NCBI GenBank assembly: GCA_031269935.1
Contig: JAISYL010000224.1
Location: forward strand, 1-39,307
DNA from: Planctomycetota bacterium
GTDB taxonomy: Bacteria; Planctomycetota; SZUA-567
Length of the DNA: 39,307 nucleotides
Reading direction: 5' to 3'
The notes under the pieces were generated by a model that was not told where the DNA came from, searched no databases, and worked only from the letters and a program-made list of their open reading frames with translations. Below, in pieces: positions 18,815-29,187 of this stretch (the stretch's first letter is position 1; each line of letters opens with the position of its first letter). The position numbers and the translations under genes are program-made.

Positions 18815-18839
18815 TTTTCGTCAAGGGAATTGACGAAAA
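18815..18839. promoter_or_regulatory. Perfect 10-bp inverted repeat, possible operator for the nitrogenase-like cluster and/or divergent tctCBA
   Basis: TTTTCGTCAA-GGGAA-TTGACGAAAA in the 18646-19024 divergent intergenic region. Confidence 0.45.
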
Positions 18840-19024: not shown

Positions 19025-19891
19025 ATGAATAACATGAAAAGGTTTGAATCGCATCCCTGCTTCGCCGGGAATTGCCGGCCGGCCGCCGGGCGGATTCATT
19101 TGCCCGTCAGCCCGGTCTGCAATATCCGTTGTCGTTTTTGCGCCCGGGGGATTACCACCGGGGTTTCGCGGCCGGGAAACGCGGCCCGGGTGGTGACTCC
19201 GGCGGAGGCGATGACGATTCTGGAGCGGGCGCTGATTGTCTGCCCCGAACTCGCGGTGGTGGGAGTTGCCGGTCCCGGGGATCCCCTGGCCAGCGGCCAC
19301 GCCCTGGAAACGCTGACCTTGGCCCGCCAAAGGCATCCGGAGTTGCTTACCTGCCTTAGCACCAACGGGCTGGGACTGCCCGCCAGCCTGCCGGGTTTGA
19401 TCGGGGCCGGGATCGAGACCTTGACCGTGACGGTGAACGCGGTCGATCCGGACATCCTGGAACGGCTGTGCGCGGGGGTGTGGTGGCGGGGGAGCTTTCT
19501 GCCCGGCCGGGCAGGGGCCGGCCGGCTGATCGAGGCCCAGGGCGAGGGCATCCGCCAGGCCCGGGATCTGGGGATGCTTGTCAAGGTCAACTTGGTCCTG
19601 GCCCCCGGGATCAACGACCGGCATGTCGGGGAGGTGGCGCGGACGGCGGCGGAGTGGGGGGCGAGGTATATGAACGTCATTCCCTTGCTTCCCGCCGCCG
19701 AGTTCGCGGCGGCGGCTCCGCCTTCCGCCGAGGCGCTGGCCGCCGCCCGCGCGGCGGTGGCCGGGCATCTGGAGGTGTTCAGGCATTGTCGGCGCTGCCG
19801 GGCCGACGCCTGCGGCGTCCCCGGCGGGGTCGATTACGCCCGGGAACTGTATCGCGAATTCCGCCAGGTGGAGACTTTTTCCCATGGTTGA
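19025..19891 (+). CDS. NifB-like radical SAM protein (no fused NifX domain)
   Basis: HPCF N-terminal motif; VSPVCNIRCRFCARG CxxxCxxC; VGVAGPGDPLASG; TVTVNAVDPDIL; CRRCRADACG C-terminal NifB motif. Confidence 0.88.
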   Translation: MNNMKRFESHPCFAGNCRPAAGRIHLPVSPVCNIRCRFCARGITTGVSRPGNAARVVTPAEAMTILERALIVCPELAVVGVAGPGDPLASGHALETLTLARQRHPELLTCLSTNGLGLPASLPGLIGAGIETLTVTVNAVDPDILERLCAGVWWRGSFLPGRAGAGRLIEAQGEGIRQARDLGMLVKVNLVLAPGINDRHVGEVARTAAEWGARYMNVIPLLPAAEFAAAAPPSAEALAAARAAVAGHLEVFRHCRRCRADACGVPGGVDYARELYREFRQVETFSHG

Positions 19892-20285
19892 GGCGTTGGG
19901 CAAACCGCCCGGCCGGGTGGCGGTCGCCAGCCGGAGCGGAGTGCTGGTGGATGAATGTTTCGGCCGCGCGGCCGGTTACCGGATTTACGAGGCCGCTCCG
20001 GACGGTTACCGGCTGGCGGAAATCCGGCCCGGGCCCGCGCCTTGCCGGGGACAGGCCCACGATCTCCCGAGCCTGGCGGCCGCCGTCGAGTCGGTGAGCG
20101 ACTGTGAAATGGTTTTGGCGGGCCGGATTGGGCCGGAAGCGGTGCGGTTGCTGGCGGGGCGGGGGGTGACGGGCCTGGCGGTCCGGATCGGCATAGACGA
20201 CGCTTTGGAACGTTTGTCCCGGCGGCGGGAACCTCCGTACGGCTGTCGGGCGGACGGCCCGGCAATTGAAAAAAAGGACCATTAA
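19884..20285 (+). CDS. NifX/NifY-type dinitrogenase iron-molybdenum cofactor-binding family protein
   Basis: [38 protein letters not shown]...; overlaps nifB-like by 8 nt; stop overlaps the nifH-like start (TAATG). Confidence 0.75.
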
Positions 20286-21160
20286 TGGCACGGGAAATAA
20301 AGCAAATCGCCATCTACGGCAAGGGAGGCATCGGCAAGTCGACCACCTCCTCCAACATTAGCGCCGCCCTTTCCAAGCTGGGATACAAGGTGATGCAGGT
20401 GGGCTGCGATCCCAAAAGCGATTCCACCAACACCCTCCGGGAAGGCAAATACATCCCCACCGTTCTGGACACCCTGCGGGCCAAGGGGAAAACCATTCCC
20501 GAGGAGATTGTCTTCAAGGGGTTCAACGGGGTCTACTGCGTGGAGGCCGGCGGTCCGGCCCCGGGGGTCGGCTGCGCCGGCCGCGGCATCATCACGGCGG
20601 TGGAGCAACTCAAGCAACTCAAGGTTTTCGAGAACCTGGGGATAGACGTGGTCATCTACGACGTCCTGGGGGACGTGGTCTGCGGCGGCTTCGCGGTCCC
20701 CATCCGGGAGGGCATCGCCAAGCACGTCTTCACCGTCACCTCCTCCGATTTCATGGCCATCTACGCCGCCAACAATCTTTTCGCCGGGATCCAGAAATAC
20801 AGCGCCAGCGGCGGCGCCCTGCTGGGGGGGATGATTGCCAATTCGATAAACGCCCCCTATTCGCGATCCATAGTCGACGATTTCGCCAGCCGCACCCGGA
20901 CGCGGGTGGTGGAATATATCCCCCGCTCGGTCACCGTCACCCAGGCCGAACTGCGGGGCAAGACCGTCATTGAAACCCAACCGGACTCGGCCCAGGGGAA
21001 AATCTATCTTCGCCTCGCCCAGCGCCTCGCCGATCACGCCGAGTCGAGGACGCCGGCGCCGATGTCGGTCCCGAACCTGCACGAATGGGCCACCGGCTGG
21101 GCGACGGAATTGTTGAAGGTGGAGACGGGGGAGGTGGGCCAGGAGGCCCAGGGCATTTAA
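20285..21160 (+). CDS. NifH-like nitrogenase iron protein homolog
   Basis: [15 protein letters not shown]-loop; [13 protein letters not shown] and [14 protein letters not shown] (the two [4Fe-4S] ligand cysteines). Confidence 0.92.
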
Positions 21161-21200: not shown

Positions 21201-22133
<933 letters not shown>

Positions 22134-22135
22134 GG

Positions 22136-22295
22136 GCCGGTCTAAAAATAAGTACTGCCTGTTTAGACAAGGAACCGAGCCGCGGCGGTAAATTTTTGCC
22201 CGTGGTTGGGCAAAAATTTACGAGAGCGGCGAAGTGACGCGGTATAAACCCGCGGGACTTATTTTTGGACGAGCCCCAAGGGTCGGTCTAAAAAA
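22136..22295. repeat. Nested palindromic element inside the nitrogenase-like operon
   Basis: Outer arms GTCTAAAAATAAGT/ACTTATTTTTGGAC (22140-22270); middle arms GTTTA..GCCGC/GCGGC..TAAAC; inner perfect arms GTAAATTTTTGCCC/GGGCAAAAATTTAC; flanked by imperfect direct repeats GGYCGGTCTAAAAA. Confidence 0.7.
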
Positions 22296-22311: not shown

Positions 22312-23658
22312 ATGACTTACATCGAAAGACCGCGGTTTTCCTGCATGCTGGGGGGAGTGCTGGCCACGGTGAATTCGCTCCCCCGGACCGTCCCCGTGGT
22401 GCACGGGGCCCAGGGTTGCGGGCGCAACCTTTCCAGCGCCTATGCCCAGGGCGGCTATTACGGCGGCGGCTACTGCAACGAACACAGCGTTCCCAGTTCC
22501 AACGTCGACGAATCGGACGTCATCTTCGGGGGGGGGGAAACCCTGGCCAAGGAATTGGCCAATTCCTTCGAAATAATCGACGCCGATCTGTTCGTGATCA
22601 CCACCGCCTGCATGACCGACATCATCGGCGACGACGTCAAGTCGGTTCTGAGCCGCTTTCCGGATCGGCCGCCGTCCATTTTCATCGAAACCGGCGGCTT
22701 CAAGGGCGATTGCTATTTCGGCTACCGCCGGTTCATGGAGGAGCTTTTCCTTCAATACATCCCCCGGGCGGAGAGGGGCGCCGGGGAAGGGAAGCCGCCC
22801 CGGGTCAATCTTCTCGGGCTGCTTCCCGGCTACGATCCTTTTTTCCGGGGCGACCTGGAGGAGATCGATCGGCTGCTGGGCCGGCTGGGAGTGGCCGCGA
22901 CCACCTTCCTCACCCCTGGCCAAACCCTGGCCGGGATCCGGGAGGCCGGGACCGCCGGGTTGAACGTCATCTTCAACCGGGCCCACGGGGAGGAACTGGG
23001 CCGGAATCTGCGGGAGAGCCACGGCATCGACTACTGGCTGGCGGATTTGCCGGTGGGGGCCAAGGCGAGCGGGGAATTCCTGCGGGAGATCGCCCGGCGG
23101 CTGAAGCTCGACCCGGCGGCGGCGGAGCGGGTGGCGCGGAGCGAAACCGGGCGGTACTACGATTACGTCGAACGCCTCTCCCCCCTGGTGGTGGATTTCG
23201 ATTTCCAGAATTACGCGGTGGTGGTGGCCAATTCCACCAACGCCCTTCCCTACGCCAGCTACCTGGACAACGAACTGGGGTGGCTGCCCACCCACGTCTA
23301 CATTACCGATCAGTTGTCGGAGGAGCAACGGGAGGCCCTGCGGACGCGTTTCGGGGAATTGGCCTTTTCGGAAAGGCCGGAACTGGTTTTCGAAACCGAC
23401 ACCCAGAACATCCAGCGCCACCTGGAAACCAGCCGCCCGCAATTCCTTTCCCGGACCTATTACGACCGGATCGAACCGCTTTTCATCCTGGGGTCAACCC
23501 TGGAATACGGATTCGCCGAAAGCCTGAGCGGATTCCACCTGTCGGTGAGCCATCCCGTCATCAACCGCACGGCGGTCGCCAGGGGTTACGCCGGGTACAA
23601 CGGCGGACTCAATCTTCTTTGCGACCTGTCCGATGCCCAGGTAGCCAGAAGGGTCTGA
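22312..23658 (+). CDS. NifK-like nitrogenase-family component (beta-type)
   Basis: Cys11 (RPRFSCMLGG), Cys36 (HGAQGCG), Cys100 (TTACMTDIIGDD) match NifK P-cluster ligand context; ESDVIFGGGETL. Confidence 0.88.
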   Translation: MTYIERPRFSCMLGGVLATVNSLPRTVPVVHGAQGCGRNLSSAYAQGGYYGGGYCNEHSVPSSNVDESDVIFGGGETLAKELANSFEIIDADLFVITTACMTDIIGDDVKSVLSRFPDRPPSIFIETGGFKGDCYFGYRRFMEELFLQYIPRAERGAGEGKPPRVNLLGLLPGYDPFFRGDLEEIDRLLGRLGVAATTFLTPGQTLAGIREAGTAGLNVIFNRAHGEELGRNLRESHGIDYWLADLPVGAKASGEFLREIARRLKLDPAAAERVARSETGRYYDYVERLSPLVVDFDFQNYAVVVANSTNALPYASYLDNELGWLPTHVYITDQLSEEQREALRTRFGELAFSERPELVFETDTQNIQRHLETSRPQFLSRTYYDRIEPLFILGSTLEYGFAESLSGFHLSVSHPVINRTAVARGYAGYNGGLNLLCDLSDAQVARRV

Positions 23659-23660
23659 AC

Positions 23661-25232
23661 ATGAAACGCGAATTCGAGGCCGATTTCACCCTGAAAGTGC
23701 CGCCCAGCCGGGAGGCGAGTTGCCGCAACACCGGATACGCCTTCGGCGGCGCCACCCGCGGCTTGGTGGAGTGCGCCGGGAAGGGCTGCCTCAACCAGTG
23801 CGACCGGGAATTCCGGCAGTCCACCAATTGCCAGATGTACGTTTCGTCCCTGATCTCCTTTTCGGTCAAGGATTCGGTGGTGATTTTTCACGGCCCGGTG
23901 GGCTGCGGGGCCCAGGCGCACCTGATCGACTACAGCGTCAAGACCTTCGGCGCCCGGCGGGGGGTGAGGATGTCCGGCGCCCGCTGGTTCAGCACCAACC
24001 TGGACGAGGGCGACGTCATCGGAGGGGGCGAGGCCAAATTGCGCCAGACGATAATCGAGGCCGACCGCCGTTTCCGGCCGACCGCCATCTTCGTCATCAA
24101 TTCCTGCGCCCCGGCGATTATCGGGGACGACCTCGACGAAGTGATAAACAATGTCCAGTCCGAGGTTTCGGCGCCCGTGGTCCCCATCCACAGTCCCGGC
24201 TTCAAGGCCAGGGTGTTTTCCTCCGCCTATGACGTGGTCTATCACGGCATTTTGCAGAAATTCGCCTTCAAGCCCGAGCCCTATCTCGACTACCAGCCGT
24301 TTTTCCGCTCCGATCCCGATTACGAACGGAAAGTCCGGGACTACGAATACCAAAAAAGCCGGACCGTCAACCTGTACAACGCCTGGTCCATCGGCCCCGA
24401 CGACGAGGCCGAGATCCGCCGGCTTCTGGAGGCGCTGGGCTTGAACGTGAGGATTTTCGTCGAGTTCAAGGAACCGGACGAATGGCGCTGGCTCGGCGAA
24501 GCGGCGCTGAACGTCTGCTTTTGCCATGTGCACGATTTGTACTTCGTGGAATTTCTCAAGAAAACCCTGGGAATGCCTTATATCCTGCCCAACATCCCGA
24601 TCGGCCTGTCGGCCACCCGGAATTTCGTCAAGGAAATCGCCGACTTCTTCGGCCTGGGGGAGGAGGCGGAAAGGCTGATCGCCAAGGAGGAGGGGGAGTT
24701 GAAGGCCGCCCTGGAGCCGCTGGCCGCGAAAATCCGGGGGAAAAGGGTGCTGATAAGCGGCGGCTATCTCCGGATCGGGGCCACCGGCCTGTTCGCCAAC
24801 GAATTGGGCCTGAAGGTGGTGGGCTTCCGCAATTTCAACTACGACATGTTCGGCAACAAGCTGTTCGGCGAATTGGAGGAGAAGATAGGAAATGTATCCA
24901 ACGTTATTTCCACCCAGTCCTCGGAACTGTTGAACGAGTTGAAGACCCTGAAGCCGGATTTCGCCATTTCCCATCCCGGGATTGGAATCTGGCTCACCAA
25001 GGCCGGAGTTCCGTCCATCACCCTGTTCGCCCAGCGGTTTCCCTTTTTCGGCTACCGCGGGGCCTACGCCCTGACCCGGCGGATAGTCCGGACCCTGGCC
25101 AACCCCAATTACGCCCGGAACCTGGCCGCCAATGTCCCCCTGCCTTACAAGGAGAAATGGTACGACATGAATCCCTACCATTTTCTGGTCGCCAAGGACG
25201 CCGCCGTCGGGGCGGCGAACGCCGGGGGGTAG
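23661..25232 (+). CDS. NifD-like nitrogenase-family component (alpha-type)
   Basis: Cys57 (TNCQMY), Cys82 (HGPVGCG), Cys149 (NSCAPAIIGDD) match NifD P-cluster ligand context; LNVCFC resembles NifD LNLVHC (FeMo-co Cys). Confidence 0.88.
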   Translation: MKREFEADFTLKVPPSREASCRNTGYAFGGATRGLVECAGKGCLNQCDREFRQSTNCQMYVSSLISFSVKDSVVIFHGPVGCGAQAHLIDYSVKTFGARRGVRMSGARWFSTNLDEGDVIGGGEAKLRQTIIEADRRFRPTAIFVINSCAPAIIGDDLDEVINNVQSEVSAPVVPIHSPGFKARVFSSAYDVVYHGILQKFAFKPEPYLDYQPFFRSDPDYERKVRDYEYQKSRTVNLYNAWSIGPDDEAEIRRLLEALGLNVRIFVEFKEPDEWRWLGEAALNVCFCHVHDLYFVEFLKKTLGMPYILPNIPIGLSATRNFVKEIADFFGLGEEAERLIAKEEGELKAALEPLAAKIRGKRVLISGGYLRIGATGLFANELGLKVVGFRNFNYDMFGNKLFGELEEKIGNVSNVISTQSSELLNELKTLKPDFAISHPGIGIWLTKAGVPSITLFAQRFPFFGYRGAYALTRRIVRTLANPNYARNLAANVPLPYKEKWYDMNPYHFLVAKDAAVGAANAGG

Positions 25233-25310: not shown

Positions 25311-26342
25311 ATGTCAAACCGCATTCGAAGGAGTTGGATTTTCGGCCTGGGCCTGTTTCTTCTGGCGGCGGGCCGATTCGCCGCCCCGGCCGGGGAATTG
25401 GTGGTCGGCCGCGGCCAGGGGGCGTCCACCATACCGATGGTGGCCAAGGATTCCGGCTACTTGGCCGACGAGGGCATCAATCCCGACATCATACCCTTCC
25501 TTTCCTCCGCCGACGGCCTTAACGCCCTCAACGTCGGCAAAATCGACGTGGGCCTCGACTATGGAACCTGCGCCCCCCTGATTTACGTGACCGAGGGGGC
25601 GGATTTCGTCATCATCGCCGGCACCCTCAGCGGCGGCCACCCGATTATCGCCAAGAAGGAGAACGCCGCCGTTTACAAGGACATCAAGGGGTTCCGGGGC
25701 AAGACGGCGGGGACTCCCCGGCTTTATACGGCCGACGTGGTTTGGCGCGGCGCCTTGAAGAGGGAGGGCCTGGAAATCGGCCGGGACGTAAAGTTGATCG
25801 AATTCAAGCGCCCCCCCGACGTGGTCGAGGCGGTCAATACCGGTAAAATCGATGTCGGAATCGTTTCCAGCGGGCAGGTCGCCCTCATTGAAAAAAGTCC
25901 CGGTCTGGCCATAGTGCTTTGGAGCAACGATCTGTTCCCCGATCATCCCTGCTGCCGCATCGTCACCACCCGGGAAGTGCTCAAGAACCGCCGTCCGGAA
26001 CTGGTGAAATTCATCAAGGCGCTGTTGCGGGCGGAGAAAAAATTCACCGCCGATCCGGAAACGGGGGTGACGGCGGTGAAAAACCAGTTGGGCATGGACG
26101 ACGATCTGGTCCGCAGCCTGGTCCTGGAGCCGCATTCGAAACTGGCGGTGGATCCCAACACCAAGGCGGTGGTGGAAATGTGGAACTACATGAACGACAT
26201 CGGATTCATCAAATCCGACCTAGATCCCCGGACCCTGATCGACACCTCGCTGTACCGGCAGGCCCTGGACGAGGTTAAAAAGGAATACCCCGATCCCTTC
26301 TGGGATGTCCTGGAAGCCCGTTTCCAGGCCCAGAACGGGTAG
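25311..26342 (+). CDS. ABC transporter substrate-binding protein, NMT1/SsuA-like
   Basis: Signal peptide; GELVVGRGQGASTIPMVAKDSGYLADEGINPDIIPFLSSADGLNALNVGKIDVGL. Confidence 0.78.
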   Translation: MSNRIRRSWIFGLGLFLLAAGRFAAPAGELVVGRGQGASTIPMVAKDSGYLADEGINPDIIPFLSSADGLNALNVGKIDVGLDYGTCAPLIYVTEGADFVIIAGTLSGGHPIIAKKENAAVYKDIKGFRGKTAGTPRLYTADVVWRGALKREGLEIGRDVKLIEFKRPPDVVEAVNTGKIDVGIVSSGQVALIEKSPGLAIVLWSNDLFPDHPCCRIVTTREVLKNRRPELVKFIKALLRAEKKFTADPETGVTAVKNQLGMDDDLVRSLVLEPHSKLAVDPNTKAVVEMWNYMNDIGFIKSDLDPRTLIDTSLYRQALDEVKKEYPDPFWDVLEARFQAQNG

Positions 26343-26724: not shown

Positions 26725-27873
26725 ATGCGACGGGAAACGTTAGTGGTCCGGGCCGGGTTGCATAGCGACCCCGTCACCGGCGCCGTGTCGGCGCCCATCC
26801 ACCAATCCGCCACCTTTGTACACACCCGCTTGCCGCCCCCGGGCGACAACAGCGGCTATGCCTATTCCCGCACCTCCAACCCCACCCGGACCGCCCTGGA
26901 AAAGTCCTTGGCGGCCCTGGACGGGGGCGCCCGCGCCTGCGCCTTCTCCTCGGGCCTGGCGGCCCTGGACGCGGTTCTCCGCCTGCTCGGTCCCTTGGCC
27001 GGGAAACGTTTGATCGTCACCGAGGACCCTTATGGGGGAACCGTCCGGCTGCTGGACAAATTCTTCCGGCCGATCGGCCTGGACACGGTTTACATCGACA
27101 CCTCCGACACCGGGGCGGTGGAGCGGGAGTTGGAGCGCGGGGCGCTCGCCCTGCTTCTTGAAATTCCGTCCAATCCCCTCCTGCGGGTGGCGGACGTGGA
27201 CGCGCTGGCGGCGGCGGCGAAGCGGGCGGGGGCGTTATTGATCGTCGACAACACCTTTCTCACCCCCCACCTGTTCAGACCTCTGGAACATGGGGCCGAC
27301 CTGGTGGTGTACAGCGCCACCAAATACCTGGGCGGCCACAACGACTTGGTGGCCGGGGCGGCGGTCTGCCGTACCGAGGAGATGGGAACGCGCCTGGCCC
27401 TGGTCCAGAACGCGGTGGGCGCCGTCCTCGGCCCCATGGATTCCTGGCTGCTCCTGCGCGGCTTGAAAACCCTGGCCGTGCGCCTGGATCGCCAGCAGGA
27501 AAACGCCCGGGGGGTTGCCGAGTTCCTCCGCCGATGTCCCCGGGTGTCCAGAGTGCGCTACCCCGGCTTGCCCGGGGACCCCGGGCACGAGCGGCTCCGG
27601 CGGCAGGCCTCGGGCTTCGGCGCCATGGTTTCCTTCGAGGTCGAGGATCCGGAGCGGGTGGAGGCCATCCTCACCGGAACGAAGATCTTTTCCTTCGCCG
27701 AGAGCCTGGGGGGGGTGGAATCGTTGATTACCTTCCCCGTTCGCCAGACCCATGCCGATATCGAACCCGCCGAGCGCGAACGCCTCGGCATCACCGACCG
27801 CCTGCTTCGGCTGTCGGTGGGAATAGAAAACCTTGAGGACTTGCTGGAGGATTTGGAACAGGCGCTGGCCTGA
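26725..27873 (+). CDS. Cys/Met metabolism PLP-dependent enzyme (cystathionine gamma-synthase/lyase or homoserine sulfhydrylase-like), paralog 1
   Basis: YSRTSNPTRTALEKSLAALDGG; LLIVDNTFLTPHLFRPLEHGADLVVYSATKYLGGHNDLVAG; GGVESLITFP. Confidence 0.87.
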   Translation: MRRETLVVRAGLHSDPVTGAVSAPIHQSATFVHTRLPPPGDNSGYAYSRTSNPTRTALEKSLAALDGGARACAFSSGLAALDAVLRLLGPLAGKRLIVTEDPYGGTVRLLDKFFRPIGLDTVYIDTSDTGAVERELERGALALLLEIPSNPLLRVADVDALAAAAKRAGALLIVDNTFLTPHLFRPLEHGADLVVYSATKYLGGHNDLVAGAAVCRTEEMGTRLALVQNAVGAVLGPMDSWLLLRGLKTLAVRLDRQQENARGVAEFLRRCPRVSRVRYPGLPGDPGHERLRRQASGFGAMVSFEVEDPERVEAILTGTKIFSFAESLGGVESLITFPVRQTHADIEPAERERLGITDRLLRLSVGIENLEDLLEDLEQALA

Positions 27874-28041: not shown

Positions 28042-29187
28042 ATGGATTATCATACCTTGCTTGTGCACGCCGGCTGGGATCGCGACCCGGTCACCGGCGC
28101 CTCCAGCATCCCGGTTTACCACGCCAGCACCTTTGATCAGGACGATCCCGATCAACCGGGCGAATACGATTATTCCCGGAGCGGCAACCCCACCCGGGCG
28201 GCCCTGGAAAAGGCCCTGGCGGAATTGGAGGGCGGGGCGGCCGCCTTCGCCTTCGCCTCCGGCATGGCGGCGGTGTCGGCGGCGCTGATGCTTTTCCAGC
28301 CCGGGGATCACCTGATTGTCGGCCTGGACGTTTACGGGGGGACCTTCCGGGCCTTGACCCGGGTTTTCCGGCGCTGGGGCCTGACCGCGTCCTTTGTCGA
28401 CACCGGCGATCCCGCCAATATCCGGGCCGCCCTGACCCCGGCCACCCGGGGAATCTGGATTGAGACTCCTTCCAATCCGCTTCTCCGCATAACCGATCTG
28501 GCGGCGGTGGCGGAACTGGCCCGGGAACACGGGCTTTTGGCCATAGCCGACGGCACCTTCGCCACCCCTTTTCTGCAAAGGCCCCTGGACTTCGGCTTCG
28601 ACCTGGTCGTCCACAGCGCCACCAAGTTCCTGAACGGCCACTCGGATGTCCTGGCGGGGATCGCGGCGGCCCGGACGGAGGAACTGGGGCGACGGGTCAA
28701 ATTCGTGCAAAACGCCCTGGGCGCGGTCCTGGGCGTCCAGGATTGCTGGCTGCTTCTCCGGGGGCTGAAGACCCTGGGGGTGCGGCTGGCCCGGGAACAG
28801 GCCACGGCCGGATGGCTGGCGGAACGGCTGGAGGAACTCCCGGAGGTGACCCGGGTTTATTATCCCCTTCTGGCCGGGCATCCCGGGCGGGAAATCCATC
28901 TCCGGCAGGCGGCGGGGGGCGGGGCGGTGCTGTCGTTCGAATTGGCCGGCGGGGAGGCCGCCCGGGCCTTCCTCAAGCGCCTACGGCTGCCGCTCCTGGC
29001 GGTGAGCCTGGGCGGGGTGGAAAGCATCATGACCTATCCCGTGACCATGTCCCACGCCTCCATGCCCAGGGAGGAGAGGGAGCGGCGCGGCATCAGCGAT
29101 CGCCTGGTCCGGCTGTCGGTGGGCCTGGAGGCGGGGGAGGATCTGCTTGCCGACATCAAGCGGGCGCTGAGGCCGGAAGGAAGGTGA
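28042..29187 (+). CDS. Cys/Met metabolism PLP-dependent enzyme, paralog 2
   Basis: YSRSGNPTRAALEKALAELEGG; LLAIADGTFATPFLQRPLDFGFDLVVHSATKFLNGHSDVLAG; GGVESIMTYP. Confidence 0.87.
   Translation: MDYHTLLVHAGWDRDPVTGASSIPVYHASTFDQDDPDQPGEYDYSRSGNPTRAALEKALAELEGGAAAFAFASGMAAVSAALMLFQPGDHLIVGLDVYGGTFRALTRVFRRWGLTASFVDTGDPANIRAALTPATRGIWIETPSNPLLRITDLAAVAELAREHGLLAIADGTFATPFLQRPLDFGFDLVVHSATKFLNGHSDVLAGIAAARTEELGRRVKFVQNALGAVLGVQDCWLLLRGLKTLGVRLAREQATAGWLAERLEELPEVTRVYYPLLAGHPGREIHLRQAAGGGAVLSFELAGGEAARAFLKRLRLPLLAVSLGGVESIMTYPVTMSHASMPREERERRGISDRLVRLSVGLEAGEDLLADIKRALRPEGR

Follow-up and report, generated by a model that had tools for sequence, protein, structure and literature searches.

Gene content of the locus

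The NifD-like gene under study lies, in a window of 39,307 nucleotides (the whole stretch of DNA analyzed), within an operon ordered as NifB-like, NifH-like, CysK, NifK-like, NifD-like and SsuA-type binding protein genes. The features are reported in Table 1, where the column "Evidence" indicates the matches or alignments supporting each assignment.

Table 1. Genes and putative ligand codons of the nitrogenase-like locus
Feature	Position	Strand	Evidence
NifB-like radical SAM protein	19025..19891	+	PDB 6y1x 220 bits, 7jmb 217 bits (NifB)
NflH, NifH-like ATP-dependent reductase; Cys97, Cys133	20285..21160	+	TIGR01287, PF00142
CysK, cysteine synthase A	21201..22133	+	TIGR01139 439.7 bits, over cut-off 350.95
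NflK, NifK-like subunit	22312..23658	+	best PDB match MarK 9d9u_C, E 5.9e-65
NflD, NifD-like catalytic alpha subunit, 523 aa	23661..25232	+	Pfam, PDB sequence and fold matches
Cys57 codon, P-cluster ligand position (MarD Cys66, NifD Cys62)	23829..23831	+	alignments
Cys82 codon, P-cluster ligand position (MarD Cys91, NifD Cys88)	23904..23906	+	alignments
Cys149 codon, P-cluster ligand position (MarD Cys158, NifD Cys154)	24105..24107	+	alignments
Cys288 codon, Fe1 ligand position of active-site cluster (MarD Cys270, NifD Cys275)	24522..24524	+	alignments
His438 codon, proposed Fe8 ligand on Loop I (MarD His429)	24972..24974	+	three alignments
Phe456 codon, NifD His442 column	25026..25028	+	MAFFT and profile-profile alignment
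SsuA/TauA/NrtA-type (NMT1) periplasmic substrate-binding protein	25311..26342	+	TIGR01728, PF09084, PF13379
Cys/Met-metabolism PLP enzyme, cystathionine gamma-synthase/lyase-like; operon membership uncertain	26725..27873	+	PF01053 451 bits
Cys/Met-metabolism PLP enzyme, cystathionine beta-lyase-like; operon membership uncertain	28042..29187	+	PF01053 466 bits

Two of the frames extend upstream of the start given: the NifB-like one is open from a TTG at 18830, with homology beginning at about residue 68 and a likely start at about 19025, while NflK is open from a GTG at 22234, its likely start being an ATG. The radical SAM protein contains the motifs HPCF, CxxxCxxC and CRRCRADA and scores 228.7 bits with TIGR01290, under the cut-off; judged by its sequence, it is a genuine NifB homologue. 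NflH is narrowly under the cut-off of its profile (384.7 against 394.35 bits), and the SsuA-type protein is also under that of TIGR01728 (113.5 bits). In CysK, both the lysine of NPLGSVKDR and the TSGNTG motif are kept. Of the two PLP enzymes, the first, adjacent in the window, is seldom found beside the orthologues; the second scores 522 bits with PRK08064, under the cut-off.

The NflD frame has no internal stops, and the protein belongs to the nitrogenase component 1 proteins (PF00148 Oxidored_nitro, 250.8 bits). It is far under the curated cut-offs of the NifD, NifE, VnfD and AnfD profiles: with the NifD profile, TIGR01282, the score is 121.6 bits against a cut-off of 653.55. Residues 205–228 include about 20 extra residues, which the closest orthologues share and which the aligned clade B and MAR-like sequences lack (clades are described below). 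No relatives of NflD were found in the viral contigs scanned; among the plasmid records listed, those matching the Ruminococcus albus protein encode NifD, NifE, VnfD or a Chlorohelix protein.

Putative cluster ligands of NflD

Three cysteines at P-cluster spacing and a fourth in the context of NifD Cys275 had been pointed out in the earlier note. All four (Cys57, Cys82, Cys149 and Cys288) do align with the corresponding ligands of MarD, the catalytic subunit of methylthio-alkane reductase (MAR), and of NifD; in an alignment of 23 rows, they are invariant in every row of clade A, the group of the window protein, that covers the column. In the AlphaFold model of NflD (mean pLDDT 83.9), Cys288 is found between strand 283–286 and helix 289–303. 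The surroundings of the clusters are poorly modelled, since pLDDT falls below 50 at residues 53–55 and 150–152.

The note had also reported that no His is present at or near the NifD His442 position, which is correct as worded. The column is occupied by Phe456, a Phe in all 23 clade A orthologues, and, when profiles are aligned by HMM-HMM comparison, the His of NifD 'QLHSYDY' falls on the F of NflD 'TLFAQRF'. In NifD, His442 belongs to 'MHSWDY', and 'PYHGF' contains a later residue, His451. The column of the latter is occupied by Phe463 in NflD; Phe463 was also considered for the His442 column, and rejected, since the alignments indicate Phe456.

The further conclusion, that a FeMo-co-type His ligand is missing or not recognizable, is not supported by the comparison with MarD. 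MarD binds an [Fe8S9C] (NifB-co/L-type) cluster by Cys270 and by a replacement His ligand reported in 2025, His429, located on Loop I and not at the NifD His442 position, which is why earlier sequence analysis had overlooked it (PMC12552129). In NflD, His438 ('KPDFAISHPGIG'), 18 residues upstream of Phe456, is placed on MarD His429 ('KPDFIIIRHNGLA') by phmmer, MAFFT and HMM-HMM alignment alike. It is invariant in 23 out of 23 clade A rows, and the same holds for those rows of clade B and of the MAR clade that were compared. Invariant His columns in clade A are 7 out of 523, and the chance of finding one on that exact column is about 1 in 75. In the AlphaFold model, His438 lies between strand 434–437 and helix 439–447. 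As far as alignments can tell, the cluster-binding His of the window protein is most likely present, on another loop, and its supposed absence is probably an error. The note had also suggested a NifB-co-like cofactor with a different ligation, and the core of this suggestion is probably correct, given the likeness to MarD and the NifB homologue in the operon; the claim of a missing His is not supported.

With the NifD of Mo-nitrogenase, to which it is about 25% identical, NflD shares the fold and the equivalents of the three P-cluster cysteines and of Cys275; the two differ at the His442 column and at that of the Loop I His, where NifD rows feature Gly.

In a further NifD-like group, found in a Planctomycetota genome (L019:540-2249, minus strand) and in Candidatus Chlorohelix (L072:9947-11506, plus strand), the Loop I stretch ('MTCPFQG', 'TGCPFMG') contains a Cys but lacks a His; by its alignment, the Cys might take the ligand role in place of the Loop I His.

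Relationship to methylthio-alkane reductase

MAR is the closest known system. The top PDB sequence match of NflD is Rhodospirillum rubrum MarD (9FMG/9D9U; E 2e-57, 198 bits, versus about 80–100 bits for NifE and NifD), and the top fold match, by Foldseek, is the same protein (9fmg_A; E 7e-31, TM 0.79/0.88). Similarly to MarBHDK of R. rubrum, NflD has NifB-like, H, D and K partners in a sulfur-metabolism setting. NflD is about 30% identical to MarD, and the window operon differs in containing CysK and in having K ahead of D. The six P-cluster cysteines of MAR (MarD 66/91/158, MarK 32/56/121) correspond to Cys57/82/149 of NflD and to Cys11, Cys36 and Cys100 of NflK, and the columns of Cys270 and His429 hold Cys288 and His438, both invariant and, by this alignment, putative ligands.

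Since MarD and MarK are the top sequence and fold matches and the ligand set is identical, NflD might be a MAR modified by sequence drift only, converting methylthio compounds to methanethiol and a hydrocarbon. This is unlikely, for several reasons. In a tree of 52 rows, built by IQ-TREE without NfaD of Endomicrobium proavitum, the window protein belongs to a clade of 17 rows (clade A, support 100/100), separate from the MAR clade, which includes R. rubrum MarD and the R. albus and [Clostridium] polysaccharolyticum sequences and is equally supported (100/100); clade B and Geobacter-type sequences are the neighbours of clade A. A clade A protein coexists with a MarD-like one, which shares 56–58% identity with R. 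rubrum MarD, in R. albus AR67, R. albus 8 and [Clostridium] polysaccharolyticum. Arg428, which in MAR hydrogen-bonds the cluster and, located beside His429, is a proposed hallmark of the enzyme (PMC12552129), is absent from NflD, where His438 is preceded by Ser/Thr437 and Loop I has one residue fewer. None of the six published pocket residues is kept: Trp195 is replaced by Phe186, His194 by Val185, Phe199 by Tyr190, His375 by Asn393, Cys73 by Leu64 and Gln74 by Ile65. Finally, the partner enzyme in the window operon is one that consumes sulfide (CysK) and not one that consumes methanethiol (an O-acetylhomoserine sulfhydrylase). On the sequence comparison, therefore, NflD would not be MAR itself, being placed in a separate, fully supported clade.

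A role as scaffold or maturase, of the NifEN type, rather than as enzyme, may also be considered: NifE is among the better profile matches of NflD, and NifEN carries the L-cluster. It is very improbable, as the tree groups NflD with MAR-like proteins, apart from NifE; moreover, in Ruminococcus flavefaciens UBA2946 the clade A pair represents the only detected Oxidored_nitro genes, so that no other catalytic partner is available to be served.

Gene order and genomic distribution of clade A

The CysK-K-D unit is kept in rumen and termite-gut bacteria. Counting the window, 17 clade A loci have CysK immediately upstream of K, in some cases as a partial gene at a contig end; the adjacency spans Planctomycetota, Candidatus Adiutrix and Bacillota. 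In the main subclade, CysK adjoins K in every locus with enough flanking sequence, while no adjacent CysK is found in four loci of a Lachnospiraceae subclade (L040, L041, L042, L044). CysK is a common gene, with several copies per genome, which counts against the link.

Downstream of D, an SsuA-type binding protein is found in most clade A loci; in a Family XIII/Peptococcaceae-type subgroup its place is taken by NflH. In R. albus AR67, [Clostridium] polysaccharolyticum and locus L038, the SsuA-type protein is followed by an ABC ATPase and a permease.

Outside the genus of the window, the clade A protein closest to NflD, 86% identical, comes from Candidatus Adiutrix (L025:5122-6675). In the tree, the two proteins nest among Bacillota: this, together with their identity, suggests from sequence that the gene moved between termite-gut bacteria.

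Three NflDK types coexist in the genome of R. albus AR67 (L029, L106, L107): a clade A pair with CysK and transporter, a MarDK pair adjoining a transporter of the same family as that of clade A, and a pair accompanied by MetB-like, CysK-like, NifX-like, NifB and NifH genes. In the stretches read, no NifH was seen beside either the clade A or the MarDK pair. In [Clostridium] polysaccharolyticum (L044:4400-14358) a MarDK pair, a LysR-type regulator and a clade A K-D-transporter unit lie side by side.

The genome of the window carries, on a different contig (C105), separate NifH, NifD, NifK, NifE and NifB homologues, so that nitrogen fixation can do without the NflDK locus. This is relevant to the possibility that the locus encodes a nitrogen-fixing Group IV enzyme of the NfaHDK type. 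NfaHDK (Group IV-A) of the termite-gut bacterium E. proavitum shares with the locus the group, the habitat and the B-H-D-K set (PMC11423573, PMC9147875), the organism is reported to fix N2 with its Group IV NfaDK (PMC9147875, PMC11257099), and NflD does contain the P-cluster cysteines and the Cys275 equivalent. NfaHDK, set apart here by its description, is predicted to hold all ligands for N2 reduction (PMC9147875); NflD, in contrast, has no His442, and Phe186 and Tyr190 occupy the columns of MarD Trp195 and Phe199, where NifD features Gln191 and His195 (PMC12552129). The gene context, finally, consists of CysK and organosulfur-type uptake. Nitrogen fixation by NflDK is thus highly unlikely.

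A known parallel for the transporter is the isethionate reductase IsrBHDK of Rhodobacter capsulatus, a sulfur assimilation system in which a radical SAM protein, H, D and K are partnered by SsuCAB (PMC11423573). As an SsuA-type protein follows D, with ATPase and permease in several Bacillota, clade A could be thought to release sulfite from a sulfonate, as Isr does. IsrD, though, retains only one of the three P-cluster cysteines and has neither Cys275 nor His442, and IsrB is closer to BciD than to NifB (PMC11423573). Lacking two P-cluster cysteines and Cys275, all present as equivalents in NflD, IsrD is not the counterpart of NflD. In addition, 9 of the 11 clade A genomes, that of the window included, gave no match to PF01077 (NIR_SIR) sulfite reductase, which leaves no obvious path from released sulfite to CysK; among control genomes, 11 out of 14 have a PF01077 match. 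The missing sulfite reductase is supportive, not conclusive, because some of the genomes are incomplete MAGs (the one of the window is 84.6% complete). Overall, sulfite release seems improbable.

Elsewhere in the same genome, on contig C135 (L105:943-5219), a CysN-like frame adjoins a sulfotransferase-like one, with a PAPS_reduct match nearby, as judged by eye: a setting perhaps denoting sulfation rather than sulfate assimilation. The PAPS_reduct match was accordingly set aside as a sign of the latter.

Proposed function

The described features are, slightly more probably than otherwise, those of a MAR-like [Fe8S9C] reductase, representative of the uncharacterized clade A, which would use ATP to cleave C-S bonds of organosulfur compounds, delivering sulfide to CysK. 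The compound would be imported by the SsuA-type transporter, by analogy with IsrBHDK (PMC11423573). The NifB-like protein would produce the [Fe8S9C] (NifB-co/L-type) cluster for the active site of NflD, where Cys288 and the Loop I His438 are predicted to anchor it, with no Mo-homocitrate. NflH would hand ATP-driven electrons to the P-cluster common to NflD and NflK. The C-S bond would then be cut reductively, as MAR does with its Cys270/His429 ligand set (PMC12552129), and the sulfide so generated may be fixed into cysteine by CysK. Sulfide release by C-S cleavage is favoured because the sulfide-using CysK is found together with a MAR-like reductase as well as a transporter of the organosulfur type. 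The failure to detect PF01077 in 9 of 11 clade A genomes and the MarDK pair of R. albus, located by a transporter of the same family, also speak for this reading. The absence of Arg428 and the replacement of Trp195, His194, Phe199 and His375 are to be counted against this function. The SsuA-type transporter family handles many substrates, which weakens the organosulfur reading. No biochemistry of any clade A member was found in the open-licence literature.

A bolder and rather improbable proposal is that clade A fully reduces the sulfur center of a sulfonate, or of sulfite, to sulfide at the NifB-co-type cluster, again feeding CysK; if so, it would replace siroheme sulfite reductase.

Significance

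Some elements of this picture have precedents. Nitrogenase-like proteins that possess Cys275 but not His442 were described by Dos Santos et al. 2012 (PMC3464626), who also noted genes for cysteine synthase or for O-acetylhomoserine sulfhydrylase as their neighbours: these proteins are of the same broad class, and in the text consulted no replacement His, product or clade of this kind is assigned to them. A 2026 paper on a termite-gut spirochete reports group IV nifK and nifD in an operon with cysteine synthase (PMC13067680). For clade A, its CysK-K-D unit, or a Loop I His outside MAR, no description was found in the open-licence literature.

According to its structural description, no nitrogenase-like enzyme other than MAR is known to contain both a P-cluster and an [Fe8S9C] cluster (PMC12552129). 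If clade A also holds both, the Loop I His would be a ligand common to several branches on the sulfur side, rather than a peculiarity of MAR, and, if truly shared, it would have implications for the way in which the cofactor of nitrogenase was originally bound and employed. The locus also points to an anaerobic route by which bacteria of the rumen and of termite guts obtain sulfur from organic molecules, an idea that can be tested, as some of the hosts, R. albus and [Clostridium] polysaccharolyticum, are cultured.
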